A stretch of 64,000 bases of DNA, taken from assembly GCA_035623075.1 (NCBI GenBank), contig DASPUC010000024.1, positions 186,001 to 250,000 of the forward strand, given 5' to 3'. The stretch is from Nitrospiraceae bacterium (GTDB lineage: Bacteria > Nitrospirota > Nitrospiria > Nitrospirales > Nitrospiraceae). The translations under genes were made by a program, and so were the position numbers. The notes below the pieces were generated by a model. The model made no database searches. It saw nothing but the letters and a program-made list of their open reading frames with translations, and had not been told where the DNA came from. Shown one piece after another: positions 37,030-42,506 of the stretch (within the stretch, counting starts at the first letter, position 1; each line of letters begins with the position of its first letter).

Positions 37030-38286
37030 TTAAAGACTGAGCGCCGGAAACCTCGGCAGCGAGGTCTCGGTGACGCCCGATAGCTTGAAAACAACTTCAT
37101 ACAACTGCTGGACCCGCTCGACCTTAATCGGTTCGAAGCCGTGGCCGAGGACGGCGTGGCTGGCCGCGTCGAGCAGGGGCTTCATGGTCGGCCACTCGCG
37201 AAGAAACCCCTGCCCGAGTTGATCCCCTAATCCGGCCAGCGTTCGAAACTGTGCCTGCAACGGTAACTTGTACTTCCCATCCACATCGTCCAAGAAGCAG
37301 GTCCGGCAGGTCTCTTGGAGCGCTTGCGGCAATTGTTCCGGCTGAAGATCCCACGTTTTGATCCTGTGCTGTTTGAACAGTTGTCGCTGGGCGATTGCTT
37401 CGAGGGCTCGCATGAGTGCAATCATGGCCCGCTCAGGATCACGATCCATATCGAGGCGCCGACGGACGTGGGCGAGGAGGTCAAGGGCGGCAAAATCCTT
37501 CACCTCGGCCGGATCGAGCACGAGCTTTTCCAGAAAACCCGCGTTCGCCTTAATCGCGGACACTAGCTCTTTCAAGCCAGGAGGTCCACCCCACAGAGAG
37601 GCCATCTCTAACGCTTTGACCGATGTCTTCAGCTTGTCCCATGCCTGTCGGTAGTGAAATCGTTCCCAGAGATCGTAGCCTTCGGCGAGGTCGAACAATG
37701 CTCGGTAGAGCGGTTTCTGCCCGCCGCTCACCCTCATTTCGATCAGTCGAAACATCGCTGCAGCAGCCACGAAGGTCCCGCGGTTAAAGTAATCGCGGGC
37801 TTCTTGGCGGGATACCGTCGCGGCTTCGTCCCAGGGATTCACCTGGACCCAGAGAAACGCCTGACCGTCGATGGTGACCGCATCGCCCTCCCGTCCTTCT
37901 GCGACTGGAACGAGCGACACCACGCGCGACGTGAAGGGTCTCGTGACCAGCGCCAGACTGCCGCTCATCGCGGCTGTGGCTCCGGTCAGGTCCACAACCA
38001 ATTCACCAGGCTGGACTTCCCAAGCCTTGAGGATCGACGGCACTGAACGAGCCATCGTTTGGTAGCAAGAGGGAAAGGGCTCGACATCCGCGAGCGTCAC
38101 CCAATCCCACCGGCGAGGCATCTGCTCGATTTTCGGCTGCACCGATGACTCGACGAGCGATTTCGCCGACTCGGGCAGGACAAAACAGAGCGATTCGGGA
38201 CGGAGGCGATTAATCGAATAGACGGCGGGGGCGGGATGATCGGTCAGGGTAATGACAAGAGATTTAATTGGTTGGTCTGGTGCCAT
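37030..38286 (-). CDS. Stand-alone CARF protein, TIGR02710 (Cas02710) family
   Basis: A 418-residue protein. Residues 1-170 form a CARF-type Rossmann domain, with SLVITLTDHPAPAVYSINRL first and VVDLTGATAAMSGSLALV as the ligand-loop motif (canonical DxTGGTKxMS, here with A for G and A for K). The rest is helical: ARDYFNRGTFVAAAAMFRLI, the YDLWERFHYRQAW segment, and ALEAIAQRQLFKQHRIKTW, which holds a possible R-x5-H HEPN-type pair. TIGR02710 proteins accompany type III CRISPR systems, sensing cyclic oligoadenylate. No CRISPR array or other cas gene is in the window. Confidence 0.82.
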   Translation of the reverse strand: MAPDQPIKSLVITLTDHPAPAVYSINRLRPESLCFVLPESAKSLVESSVQPKIEQMPRRWDWVTLADVEPFPSCYQTMARSVPSILKAWEVQPGELVVDLTGATAAMSGSLALVTRPFTSRVVSLVPVAEGREGDAVTIDGQAFLWVQVNPWDEAATVSRQEARDYFNRGTFVAAAAMFRLIEMRVSGGQKPLYRALFDLAEGYDLWERFHYRQAWDKLKTSVKALEMASLWGGPPGLKELVSAIKANAGFLEKLVLDPAEVKDFAALDLLAHVRRRLDMDRDPERAMIALMRALEAIAQRQLFKQHRIKTWDLQPEQLPQALQETCRTCFLDDVDGKYKLPLQAQFRTLAGLGDQLGQGFLREWPTMKPLLDAASHAVLGHGFEPIKVERVQQLYEVVFKLSGVTETSLPRFPALSL

Positions 38287-38396: not shown

Positions 38397-38975
38397 ATGA
38401 AAGAGCAGGCGATCCAAGCGTTCGAGGAGAGCGCCGCGGTCAAGCAACAGTTCGTCCGCGATCACGCCGGCCGCATCGAGCAAGTGGTGAAATTGATCGC
38501 GACGGCGTTCCGCGAAGGCCGCAAAGTGCTCCTGTTTGGTAATGGCGGCAGCGCGACCGACGCGGCCCACCTCGCGGCCGAGTTTGTCGGCCGGTACCAT
38601 CGCGAACGGGCCCCGCTTCCCGCAATCGCCCTCGCAACCGACATCGCCGCCATCACGTGTATCGCGAACGATTATGGTTACGACGAGCTGTTCGCTCGCC
38701 AGGTTCGCGCCCATGGGCAAAAAGGCGATATCGCCATTGCGATCAGCACGAGCGGAAACTCCGCCAACGTGCTCAAGGGCGTCGAGGCCGCTCGAACAAT
38801 CGGCATGGCGACCATTGCCTGGACCGGCGGCAGCGGAGGCAAGCTCGCCGCGATGGTCGATCATCCATTCGTCGTGCCATCCAAGGTCACAGCGCGCATT
38901 CAAGAGACTCATATCACGCTCGGCCATGTCCTGTGCGAACTCATAGAGGAACAGCTCCTTGGCAAAGCGTCCTAG
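38397..38975 (+). CDS. gmhA: Phosphoheptose isomerase (SIS domain)
   Basis: A 192-residue SIS-domain isomerase. KVLLFGNGGSATDAAHLAAE and DIAIAISTSGNSANVLKGVE are the sugar-phosphate-binding loops, and ARIQETHITLGHVLCELIE the C-terminal catalytic helix (Glu/His) of GmhA. It converts sedoheptulose-7-phosphate to glycero-manno-heptose-7-phosphate for LPS core synthesis. A later pathway gene (rfaE2) is at 42024. Its last 17 bases overlap the next gene, implying co-translation. Confidence 0.93.
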   Translation: MKEQAIQAFEESAAVKQQFVRDHAGRIEQVVKLIATAFREGRKVLLFGNGGSATDAAHLAAEFVGRYHRERAPLPAIALATDIAAITCIANDYGYDELFARQVRAHGQKGDIAIAISTSGNSANVLKGVEAARTIGMATIAWTGGSGGKLAAMVDHPFVVPSKVTARIQETHITLGHVLCELIEEQLLGKAS

Positions 38976-39957
38976 ACGGACTCCTCCTCGCCTTCCGACT
39001 CCTCCTCTCATTCCCCCGATCAACGTATCGGATCTCAAGACCTATCCATTGAAGAAACGGCACAGTAAGGTGCGTGTCTCGGACTTCGCGAAACCCTGGA
39101 AGCGAGGAGGGAGTTTCACCCAGTTCTATCGCACCCTGCCGGATATTCTGGCCGTAAAGACCTTGCGAGCCGTCGCCAAGACCATGGCTGCCACGCACCG
39201 ACAAGGCCGGCCGGTGATCGTCGGTGTCGGCGCGCACGTCGTGAAGGTGGGACTCAACCCGATTGTCGTCGATTGGATGAAACAGGGCATTGTGTCCGCG
39301 GTGGCGATGAACGGAGCCGGGATCATTCATGATTTCGAACTGGCGTTGATGGGCCATACCTCGGAAGAGGTCGATGCGGAAATCGATGAAGGACGATTCG
39401 GTATGGCGGAGGAAACCGGACGTATCCTCAACGAAGCGATTACGCGCGGCGCGCGCGACCGTCAAGGCCTTGGCGAGACCGTCGGCCACCACATCAATCG
39501 GCACACAGGACAATTTCCCCATCGCGAGACAAGTATCCTCGCCACCGGAGCGCGACTCGGCATCCCCGTGACCGTGCATGTGGCCGTCGGGACCGACATC
39601 ATTCACATGCACCCCTCGGCTGATGGAGCCGCGATCGGCGCGACGTCGCTGCTCGACTTCCGCCGGCTCGCCGCCGTGGTGGCAGGCATGGAAGGCGGCG
39701 TCTACCTCAATCTTGGTTCTGCGGTGATCCTTCCGGAAGTTTTCCTCAAGACCGTGTCCCTAGGGCGCAATCTGGGTCACGCTCTCACGAAGATCACCAC
39801 CGTCAACATGGATTTCTTGTCCCACTATCGTCCACTCACGAATGTGGTGCGGCGCCCTACCCAGAAAGGGGGCAGGGGCTACTCGTTGATCGGTCACCAT
39901 GAGATTATGGTGCCGTTATTGGCAGCGGCACTCCAAGAAGAATTGGCAGACCGCTGA
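38959..39957 (+). CDS. Deoxyhypusine-synthase-like protein of unknown substrate
   Basis: A 332-residue protein. A basic, proline-rich N-terminus is followed by a Rossmann-type domain: VIVGVGAHVVKVGLNPIVVD, VAMNGAGIIHDFELALMGHT, HVAVGTDIIHMHPSADG and GGVYLNLGSAVILPEVFLK. These blocks recall bacterial DHS-like (deoxyhypusine synthase fold, NAD-binding) proteins. The eukaryotic enzyme uses spermidine on eIF5A, which bacteria lack, so the substrate here must differ. The name is given from memory of similar sequences and is only moderately certain. It overlaps gmhA by 17 nt, so a role tied to heptose or sugar metabolism is possible. Confidence 0.5.
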   Translation: MAKRPRRTPPRLPTPPLIPPINVSDLKTYPLKKRHSKVRVSDFAKPWKRGGSFTQFYRTLPDILAVKTLRAVAKTMAATHRQGRPVIVGVGAHVVKVGLNPIVVDWMKQGIVSAVAMNGAGIIHDFELALMGHTSEEVDAEIDEGRFGMAEETGRILNEAITRGARDRQGLGETVGHHINRHTGQFPHRETSILATGARLGIPVTVHVAVGTDIIHMHPSADGAAIGATSLLDFRRLAAVVAGMEGGVYLNLGSAVILPEVFLKTVSLGRNLGHALTKITTVNMDFLSHYRPLTNVVRRPTQKGGRGYSLIGHHEIMVPLLAAALQEELADR

Positions 39958-39970
39958 TAAATGTGTCCCG

Positions 39971-40110
39971 CGTCGTTCTCAGTCGCTCGAACCACTCAAC
40001 GTACGGCCCGGGAAAGAGCTGCTGGGAGCTCGGGGCGGGCGGGTGAGAAACGTCTACGCCTCGCGGTCCTCGCTCCTTGCGGCCTTGCTGGGTAACATTT
40101 TTGAGCGGTC
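39971..40110 (-). repeat. Interspersed repeat, second copy (opposite orientation)
   Basis: Read on the minus strand this contains CAGCAAGGCCGCAAGGAGCG, later CCGTACGTTGAG and GAGCGACTGAGAACGA. These three blocks occur in the same order in the repeat at 33281-33406. The outer inverted arms are less well kept. It fills the space between the DHS-like gene and the SprT-like gene; nothing else is seen there. Confidence 0.55.
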
Positions 40111-40121
40111 TAACGCAGCGT

Positions 40122-40796
40122 ATGAGTACACACGACTCTATACGACCTCTGCCCTATTCCACGGAAAAACTTGCGAGGATCTGGTCCGATCTCAATATTC
40201 GATACTTCAACGGGACTCTGCCTCCCATCGACATCGTATGGAGCACTCGCCTGACCGCGTCGGTCGGCTTGTTCGTGACGACCGTCGGCCCCCGCAAGTT
40301 GGCCCAGCGCTGGGGCATGAGTACGACGCGGCGACGGGAAATTCGGCTCTCGGTACCGTTACTGTCGCAAGCCTTCGCGAAGTCTCCGTATGGCGAGCAC
40401 GAAATCACGAGTACGCTGGCTCACGAAATGATTCACCAATGGCAGTACGACATCCTCAAACGACGTCCCAACCATGGGCTCGACTTCCTGAAGAAGATGG
40501 CTGAGATGAATCGTGATGGCATGCTGGCCATTACGACGTACCATTCGTTACAGGACGAGGTGATTGCACTGACACGCTTCGCCTGGCGCTGCCGGCAATG
40601 CGGCCGCGTGTATCGACGCCAGCGGCGAACGATCGAACCTCGCCGGCACCATTGCGGCGTGTGCCGCGGCTCGCTTCAAGAACTGAGGGCGGTGACGCGA
40701 CGACACGACCTGTCGAACGAGCTGGAGTCACGAGATGGTTGTCGCATGCGCTCTTCGACCTCCTTGCAACCGGCCCAATTGTCTTTTACCTTTTAG
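40122..40796 (+). CDS. SprT-like zinc metalloprotease-type protein
   Basis: A 224-residue protein. IWSDLNIRYFNGTLPPIDIVW is the SprT-like opening, STLAHEMIHQWQY the HExxH zinc helix, and CRQCGRVYRR...CGVCRG a C-terminal zinc ribbon. SprT-like proteins include the DNA-protein crosslink protease SPRTN; bacterial members are poorly studied. The ATG at 40122 is chosen because similarity starts soon after it. The next gene, a Y-family polymerase, begins 24 nt after its stop, so a shared role in tolerating damaged DNA is plausible. Confidence 0.85.
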   Translation: MSTHDSIRPLPYSTEKLARIWSDLNIRYFNGTLPPIDIVWSTRLTASVGLFVTTVGPRKLAQRWGMSTTRRREIRLSVPLLSQAFAKSPYGEHEITSTLAHEMIHQWQYDILKRRPNHGLDFLKKMAEMNRDGMLAITTYHSLQDEVIALTRFAWRCRQCGRVYRRQRRTIEPRRHHCGVCRGSLQELRAVTRRHDLSNELESRDGCRMRSSTSLQPAQLSFTF

Positions 40797-40819
40797 GCTT
40801 CACGACTGGGGAACGAGGA

Positions 40820-42010
40820 ATGCGCTGGTCCCGCCGGATTCTGTTCGGGGATGTGGATGCTATGTTCGCTGCCGCGGCTGTCGTCGCCGATCCCACTCTC
40901 GCCGGCAAACCGGTCGCCGTCGGAGGACAACCTCCGCGCGGCATTATCGCCGCCGCCAGTTATGTGGTACGTCCTTATGGCGTGCGTTCTGCCATGCCGA
41001 CGATCGAAGCATTCCGGCTCTGCCCCCATTTGGTTCTGATCCCGCTGGACCGGCCGTTGTATCGCCGCCTGCATGACCAGATGCGAATCGTCACGGATCG
41101 CCTCTTTCCCTTGACCGAGTGGAGCAGCATCGACGAATTCTACGCAGACACCACAGACCTGCAATCCAGCCATCCCGACCCCCGGTCGCTCGGCCGGCTG
41201 GTGAAACAATCAATTTTCGACGCGACTGGGTTGCGATGCACCGTGGCGCTGGCCACGGGAAAAACCGTCGCCAAGATCGCGGCAGATTCTCATAAGCCTG
41301 ATGGACTCGTAACGATTGACCCTGGGACCGAACAGGCGTTTCTCGCTCCCCTACCGATCCGGGCCCTACCGGGAATCGGTCCGAAGACCGCAGCACGATT
41401 GGAGCCGCTCGGCTTGCGGACGATCGGGGGTCTTCTGGACACGCGCTGGGAAGGGGTCCTACGCGGCCTTTTCGGCTCCCGTCTCCTAGAGGTCAGGGAA
41501 TTGGCCCGTGGGATTGATCGTGAACCGGTCTGTGCCGATCGCGAATCGAAGAGCCTCAGCCACGAGACCACCTTTGAGCATGACACGGATGATCGTGCCT
41601 TCATCGAACAGACGCTCCGAGGGTTCCTGCGTAAACTCGCGCATGAGCTTCGACAAGAAGGACTCGCTGCCAGCTGCTGTACGGTGAAGTTAAAGGATGC
41701 CCGTTTCACGATTACGACGAAACAGCGGCGCTTTCCCGGTCCCTTGAACTATGACCCCGCAATGTGGCCGATCGTCCAGCGGATCCTGCAAGAGCTCTTT
41801 ATACCGGGGACGAAGTACCGCCTCGCCGGACTATCCCTCTCGTCGCTGAATCCTGCGTCACCCGGGCTCTTCGATCAGCGGCGCGCCAAGGCTGTCGAGG
41901 CGATGGATGCCATCATCGCACAACATGGATCATCGGTGATGGGCCTCGGCGGCGTGACACGTGACTCCCCCCTGAGCCGCTCGATCTCTTTTCATCTGTC
42001 CTTCGACTAG
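40820..42010 (+). CDS. dinB: DNA polymerase IV (Y-family, DinB)
   Basis: A 396-residue Y-family polymerase for translesion synthesis. The first catalytic motif reads LFGDVDAMFAA where most members have HxDMDxFFA; the steric-gate F is kept. TEWSSIDEFYAD holds the second catalytic DE pair, ALATGKTVAKIAADSHKPDG and LPGIGPKTAARLEPLG are the palm/thumb motifs, and a little-finger domain follows. No clear C-terminal clamp-binding motif of the QxxLF type is seen. The start at 40820 follows GGGGAACGAGGA. Odd substitutions at the N-terminus may affect activity. Confidence 0.92.
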   Translation: MRWSRRILFGDVDAMFAAAAVVADPTLAGKPVAVGGQPPRGIIAAASYVVRPYGVRSAMPTIEAFRLCPHLVLIPLDRPLYRRLHDQMRIVTDRLFPLTEWSSIDEFYADTTDLQSSHPDPRSLGRLVKQSIFDATGLRCTVALATGKTVAKIAADSHKPDGLVTIDPGTEQAFLAPLPIRALPGIGPKTAARLEPLGLRTIGGLLDTRWEGVLRGLFGSRLLEVRELARGIDREPVCADRESKSLSHETTFEHDTDDRAFIEQTLRGFLRKLAHELRQEGLAASCCTVKLKDARFTITTKQRRFPGPLNYDPAMWPIVQRILQELFIPGTKYRLAGLSLSSLNPASPGLFDQRRAKAVEAMDAIIAQHGSSVMGLGGVTRDSPLSRSISFHLSFD

Positions 42011-42023
42011 GTATGATGGCCTC

Positions 42024-42506
42024 ATGACAAACAAAGTCGTGACTAAGAACCAACTCGCACCGTTGTTGGCGGAGGCGCGAGCACAGCGGAAGCGAATCGT
42101 CTTCACGAACGGGTGTTTCGATCTTATGCATGTCGGCCACACGCGTTATCTCCAGGCCGCGAAGGGACTGGGGGACCTGCTCGTTGTTGGAGTGAACAGC
42201 GACGCTTCCGTGAAAAGTCTGAAGAAGTCCCCCGACCGCCCGATCGTTCCGGAGTCTCAACGCGCGGAGATTCTCGCAGCGCTGGGCTGCGTCGATTATG
42301 TCGTCCTCTTCTCCGAACCGGACCCGCACAAGCTCATCCACGCCGTACAGCCCGACGTGTTGGTCAAAGGGGGAGATTGGTCGGTCGAGACCATCGTCGG
42401 ACGGGACATCGTCGAAGCTCGCGGGGGCGTGGTAAAAACGATCCCGCTGGTCCCCGGCATCTCCACGACGACCCTCATTCACCGTATCCGTTCAACCCAC
42501 ACGTAA
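42024..42506 (+). CDS. rfaE2: Heptose 1-phosphate adenylyltransferase (RfaE2/HldE C-terminal type)
   Basis: A 160-residue nucleotidyltransferase. FTNGCFDLMHVGHTRYLQAA carries the HxGH active site, VNSDASVKSLKKSPDRPIVP and DVLVKGGDWSVETIVGRDIV complete the RfaE2 pattern. It activates glycero-manno-heptose-1-phosphate to ADP-heptose. In E. coli this activity is fused to a kinase (HldE); here it is a separate protein, as in many other bacteria. It is 3 nt before mfd, so these genes are translated from one message. Confidence 0.94.
   Translation: MTNKVVTKNQLAPLLAEARAQRKRIVFTNGCFDLMHVGHTRYLQAAKGLGDLLVVGVNSDASVKSLKKSPDRPIVPESQRAEILAALGCVDYVVLFSEPDPHKLIHAVQPDVLVKGGDWSVETIVGRDIVEARGGVVKTIPLVPGISTTTLIHRIRSTHT

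Follow-up and report, generated by a model that had tools for sequence, protein, structure and literature searches.

What is the function of the hypothetical protein whose gene overlaps the end of the phosphoheptose isomerase gene gmhA in a Nitrospiraceae bacterium, and does its position point to a part in heptose synthesis? The ADP-heptose pathway itself is established, and the window, the whole 64,000-nucleotide stretch of DNA that was analysed, carries gmhA and hldC on the same strand as the hypothetical gene.

The gmhA locus

The locus is composed of the following features.

38397..38975, + strand: gmhA, sedoheptulose 7-phosphate isomerase (phosphoheptose isomerase); ATG start, 192 aa, SIS_2
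38959..39957, + strand: gene of the GSU2086 family, product with DHS-like fold and proposed to epimerise heptose at C6; TTG start, 332 aa, NF052581
38959..38975, + strand: 17-nt gene overlap, the TTG of the GSU2086-family gene lying within the end of gmhA; read from the sequence
40077..40796, + strand: SprT-like protein, in between, no role proposed; NCBIfam SprT family 32.5 bits, cut-off 113
40598..42010, + strand: DNA polymerase IV-like gene (dinB), in between, no role proposed; NCBIfam models at most 265 bits, under their cut-offs
42024..42506, + strand: hldC, heptose 1-phosphate adenylyltransferase; TIGR02199 198.3 bits, cut-off 181.5

The gmhA product matches Pfam SIS_2 with 106.5 bits (cut-off 27) and NCBIfam TIGR00441 with 203.4 bits, slightly below a cut-off (209.45) that is passed by only 2 of 195 Nitrospirota genomes, 171 of which have a match at E 1e-50. 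Downstream of hldC is a gene that we take, by its sequence, to be mfd. On the other side, gmhA is adjoined by a gene for a TIGR02710-family CRISPR-associated CARF protein (37030-38286, - strand; 132.9 bits, cut-off 83.9).

The 17-bp overlap with gmhA described in the earlier note is real, both open reading frames being present with bases 38959-38975 in common. It is also conserved, as that note had proposed to check. Among 110 loci, 30 from a first set and 80 from a second with some genomes in both, the two genes lie on the same strand with gmhA first in 106, and in 84 of these 106 adjacent pairs a start codon allows an overlap of exactly 17 nt. The remaining pairs overlap by 14 nt (eight), 20 nt (five) or 8 nt (four), or have none near (five). 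The overlap is more than chance.

Family and fold of the second product

The window protein is a direct member of the GSU2086 family (NCBIfam NF052581; 432.5 bits, cut-off 250), residues 20-324 aligning with positions 1-301 of the 301-position profile, and the same model is matched by all 44 aligned Nitrospirota members. Profile searches thus led to a family without assigned function and not to the different, characterised enzyme family that the earlier note had named as the refuting outcome. The family is uncharacterised in NCBIfam, and the heptose role proposed here is new for it.

The description of the gene as deoxyhypusine synthase (DHS)-like holds for the fold, is weak by sequence and fails as a family name. 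Pfam DS (PF01916) gives 23.3 bits over residues 67-136 of the window protein (cut-off 27), and the models for homospermidine synthase, bis(guanidino)aza-nonane synthase and DHS remain far under their cut-offs. A first structure model, for which 18 sequences were aligned, was of moderate confidence (pLDDT 74); a second, using 44 sequences of greater diversity, was confident (pLDDT 92.5, pTM 0.86), and the comparison with DHS that had been suggested earlier gave a DHS-like fold, with a Z-score of 22.3 to archaeal DHS 7cmc (rmsd 3.6 over 271 residues, 13% identity; Foldseek E to DHS 1.8e-9). For most other DHS entries Z is 19-21, for archaeal ornithine cyclodeaminase 3c2q it is 20.0, and for AgrE and ArgZ, whose C-terminal domains align over 211-224 residues with rmsd 3.0-3.2, it is 20.6-20.9. 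On these Z-scores the fold by itself does not choose between DHS and AgrE/ArgZ.

Sequence comparisons are mixed and do not settle whether the closer kinship is to DHS or to ArgZ. A 7-row profile including two distant plasmid members finds ArgZ (E 0.0008) and AgrE (0.002) ahead of DHS (0.017), the 44-row Nitrospirota profile finds only a DHS among the related entries (E 0.12) and no ArgZ, and a search with the single Chloroflexota protein ranks DHS first. The DHS model PRK02301 is matched by 28 of the 44 members at E <=0.01 and TIGR00300 by seven. With the window protein TIGR00300 scores 19.0 bits (cut-off 410.8) and PF21570, the ArgZ C-terminal domain, 17.7 (cut-off 27); the two plasmid members exceed the latter cut-off (30.0 and 30.3 bits), their matches covering part of the profile. 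No match to the window protein at E 10 was found among PDB sequences by phmmer, and no relative in the viral contigs and phages searched.

Compared with deoxyhypusine synthase (PF01916, TIGR00321) the overall fold is alike, but GSU2086 differs in its scores below cut-off, in the absence of a conserved C-terminal lysine and in its heptose context; DHS proper was rejected for the window protein on score, lysine and context. Compared with the AgrE/ArgZ C-terminal domain and archaeal ornithine cyclodeaminase (PF21570, TIGR00300), GSU2086 has a like fold and, in HMMER alignments, a short common stretch around HD-x-E and G-T-S, but it is far below the TIGR00300 cut-off and no amino-acid pathway context was found. 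Residues invariant in both the 44 Nitrospirota members and the 7-row set include H93, H124, D125, E127, H207, D213, H216, H218, K264, R270, D285, R291, R299 and H314. Among the lysines K264 alone is invariant in the two alignments, and after it none is conserved in the 44 members, as judged on aligned sequence. A separate DHS homologue is encoded elsewhere in the same bacterium (L001 1456-2562, - strand, contig C34; PF01916 246 bits). It carries near its C-terminus the motif SWGK, whose lysine is the catalytic one of DHS, and its best NCBIfam scores are all below cut-off. Aligned with it by hhalign, the GSU2086 family matches over 32 columns only.

Distribution of GSU2086 and HldD in Nitrospirota

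The window's genome also has hldA (386 bits, cut-off 345) and a Kdo-transferase-like gene, but no recognisable HldD, the best match reaching 137.9 bits (cut-off 274.6). That this match is an overlooked HldD was rejected, as it fits GalE best, itself below the GalE cut-off. The window protein has no match to the HldD model TIGR02197 (cut-off 274.6) at E 1. In the same genome heptosyltransferase II (WaaF) and a GmhB-like HAD phosphatase are fused in one 564-aa open reading frame (L215 7500-9191, + strand, contig C20), and long reading frames around GmhB matches recur across Nitrospirota.

Across the phylum GSU2086 and HldD are nearly mutually exclusive. GSU2086 is over cut-off in 155 of the 195 genomes and HldD is found at E 1e-60 in 27, all 27 over the curated cut-off; 151 genomes have GSU2086 only, 23 HldD only, four both and 17 neither. 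When the count is confined to the 171 genomes with gmhA (E 1e-50), 143 have GSU2086 only, 21 HldD only, four both and three neither, so that GSU2086, HldD or both are present in 168; in one of the three with neither, G119, GSU2086 matches in part. Exactly one of the two is present in 81 of 86 gmhA-positive genera, a figure reached in 0 of 100,000 shuffles, which ignore relatedness, and the HldD-only genomes are spread over six families. Eight GSU2086 genomes have no gmhA at E 1e-50, perhaps a threshold effect. The other pathway enzymes do not follow this division, as HldC (176 of 195 genomes, E 1e-45) and GmhB (155 of 195, E 1e-30) occur with either epimerase type. Replacement of GmhB or HldC by GSU2086 was rejected on these counts, and replacement of HldA on the presence of hldA in the window's genome.

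Within the sister genera the exchange can be seen in place. In genomes G018 and G206 hldD, over the curated HldD cut-off in both, begins 11 and 13 nt past the end of gmhA and is followed by dinB, and so occupies the slot that GSU2086 has in the window. In G194 gmhA is followed by a 33-residue remnant of GSU2086 (76% identity), which runs on through a short stretch into a stop, HldD being encoded on another contig; in G204, where HldD is likewise on another contig, no remnant was detected. The HldD proteins of five Nitrospiraceae (G001, G177, G194, G204, G208) form one clade with 69-83% mutual identity and are 39-44% identical to those of G018 and G206, two diverged groups that indicate the entry of at least two HldD lineages into the Nitrospiraceae. 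GSU2086 is still kept in three of the five, and these three look like a stage before its loss.

Gene neighbourhoods elsewhere

In the first set gmhA is near the GSU2086 gene in 30 of 30 loci. Among 40 loci from other families of the phylum, some on stretches cut by contig ends, gmhA or hldC is present in 13 and neither in 27, where the housekeeping genes leuS, holA and rpsT recur as neighbours. The relatives taken from genome contigs, the best 80 of 427, are nearly all from Nitrospira or its relatives, so that other phyla are sampled only through two plasmids. On that of Solidesulfovibrio carbinolicus GSU2086 lies directly between an HldE-like gene and one for a SIS isomerase. On the Chloroflexota plasmid CP069395 genes for a HAD protein, GSU2086, an HldA-like kinase and a SIS isomerase form one run (L218 8044-11471, + strand), adjoining sugar ABC transporter and inositol-dehydrogenase-like genes. 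No adenylyltransferase is among the annotated neighbours there, and the run possibly serves a sugar-phosphate route other than that of lipopolysaccharide heptose.

In Geobacter sulfurreducens the gene has the same neighbours, hldE, GSU2086 and gmhA bearing consecutive locus numbers in PMC5585712. The same paper gives transposon scores for growth on electrodes of -3.1 for hldE, -3.2 for GSU2086 and -3.7 for gmhA, to which polarity could partly contribute.

Proposed function and alternatives

The near mutual exclusion with HldD, together with replacement in place, suggests GSU2086 stands in for HldD, and the linkage to heptose genes in part of the phylum and outside it, as well as the lack of a recognisable HldD in the window's genome, point the same way. 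We consider it probable that where bacteria lack HldD this gene provides the enzyme that sets the stereochemistry of ADP-heptose, the reaction itself being deduced from the exclusion and the replacement. GmhA would supply D-glycero-D-manno-heptose 7-phosphate, HldA, GmhB and HldC would carry this on to ADP-D,D-heptose, and GSU2086 would invert C6, yielding the ADP-L,D-heptose that goes into the inner core of lipopolysaccharide. Inversion at an unactivated carbon needs a transient oxidation, as is established for HldD. In GSU2086 a pyridine-nucleotide-type cofactor in the DHS-like Rossmann domain would take the C6 hydride and give it back on the other face, with invariant histidines as putative acid and base, a mechanism that the fold and the conserved residues make plausible. 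The proposed reaction and pathway slot would be common to GSU2086 and HldD (ADP-glyceromanno-heptose 6-epimerase, TIGR02197), as is the operon position in G018 and G206, but the folds are unlike, HldD being of the short-chain dehydrogenase type. Against this reading are the four genomes with both proteins, the three gmhA genomes with neither, and the 27 of 40 loci from other families without gmhA or hldC in the fetched stretch.

Three other explanations account for part of the same data. The enzyme might act earlier, on heptose 7-phosphate or 1,7-bisphosphate directly after GmhA, with the later steps then running on L,D-heptose phosphates. The 17-nt overlap that is possible in 84 of 106 pairs would suit such a succession, and the Chloroflexota run, with no annotated adenylyltransferase beside it, fits a sugar-phosphate substrate better. 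We nevertheless consider an earlier step unlikely. HldC and GmhB are found in HldD genomes and in GSU2086 genomes alike, and would have to accept both epimers. HldD is known to act on ADP-heptose, and the simplest account of its exchange with GSU2086 is that the two catalyse one step. An altogether different change to the heptose, such as oxidation, reduction or amination, with a product that replaces L,D-heptose in the inner core, would produce the same near mutual exclusion with HldD, and is permitted by a fold in which DHS and ornithine cyclodeaminase perform hydride chemistry other than epimerisation. The standard heptosyltransferase II domain and the presence of hldD in the same operon slot of sister genera suggest the product is the same, which makes such a change quite improbable.

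The earlier note had expected an undescribed sugar- or polyamine-related reaction tied to gmhA, and of this the sugar part stands, while the polyamine part gains no support from the DHS-type scores, from the alignment, in which no lysine is conserved past K264, or from the partner genes, which are heptose genes. A DHS-like enzyme of polyamine or protein modification that lies beside gmhA by accident would explain the fold and the weak matches of 28 of the 44 members to PRK02301 (E <=0.01), but it has to be set against scores under every DHS-type cut-off, the lack of a conserved lysine after K264, the separate DHS homologue already in the genome, and both the HldD exclusion and the heptose linkage. 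We hold it to be very improbable.

Cofactor

The identity of the hydride carrier is a separate matter from the epimerase assignment. In this fold NAD is indicated by the crystal structure titles of 1dhs (DHS) and 6lrg (AgrE with NAD+), and the crystallisation of AgrE with NAD+ favours NAD over the nickel-pincer nucleotide. The alternative carrier is suggested by the co-occurrence of GSU2086 with LarC, which inserts nickel into the nickel-pincer cofactor. LarC is found in 169 of the 195 genomes and LarA in only 19; LarC is present in 152 of 155 GSU2086 genomes (not found in G048, G100 and G199) versus 4 of 23 HldD-only genomes, and in 136 GSU2086 genomes it occurs without LarA. These counts agree with the cofactor pathway being lost once GSU2086 had gone, the clades concerned being few. 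In the window's genome LarB and LarC are over cut-off about 0.7 kb apart (L213 9640-12364, - strand, contig C49), and LarA has no match.

We tentatively put forward GSU2086 as a nickel-pincer-nucleotide-dependent sugar epimerase of DHS fold, akin to the ornithine cyclodeaminase domain, that would invert heptose C6 by hidden hydride transfer and so be a user of the cofactor other than LarA; we regard this as possible but would not call it probable. TIGR00300 takes its name of nickel-pincer-dependent ornithine cyclodeaminase from NCBIfam, and no paper on such an enzyme was among the literature matches listed. PMC11770544 describes racemisation and epimerisation by hidden redox with the nickel-pincer nucleotide in the LarA lactate racemase superfamily, the chemistry proposed here for GSU2086, but the window protein has no LarA-domain match in a Pfam scan at E 1. 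Speaking against the cofactor link are 14 genomes with LarC in which LarA is not found and GSU2086 does not reach its cut-off: six of genus g24, which are also without gmhA, four HldD-only genomes, and G047, G059, G072 and G119, of which G047 and G119 have partial GSU2086 matches. The g24 genomes (G026, G029, G040, G175, G185, G188) keep LarC without LarA and are missing gmhA, hldC, GmhB and GSU2086 at the thresholds used, which implies another user of the nickel-pincer nucleotide or slow loss. In PMC11796402, where LarA with the cofactor attached is 450.2 Da heavier, about 15% of the genomes analysed have larB, larE and larC without larA, and nickel-pincer proteins other than LarA should hence exist; if the cofactor link holds, GSU2086 would be a concrete candidate for the proteins sought in that work.

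Implications

Among the literature matches listed, we found no earlier statement of a heptose-epimerase idea for Geobacter, or of one joining heptose genes with DHS or the nickel-pincer nucleotide. In the hypothetical gene of the window we see a strong candidate for the heptose epimerase that these bacteria otherwise lack, its reaction being predicted. If the assignment is true, an enzyme unlike HldD would supply the epimerase activity missing from the ADP-heptose pathway of most Nitrospirota genomes in this survey, and perhaps from that of Geobacter.
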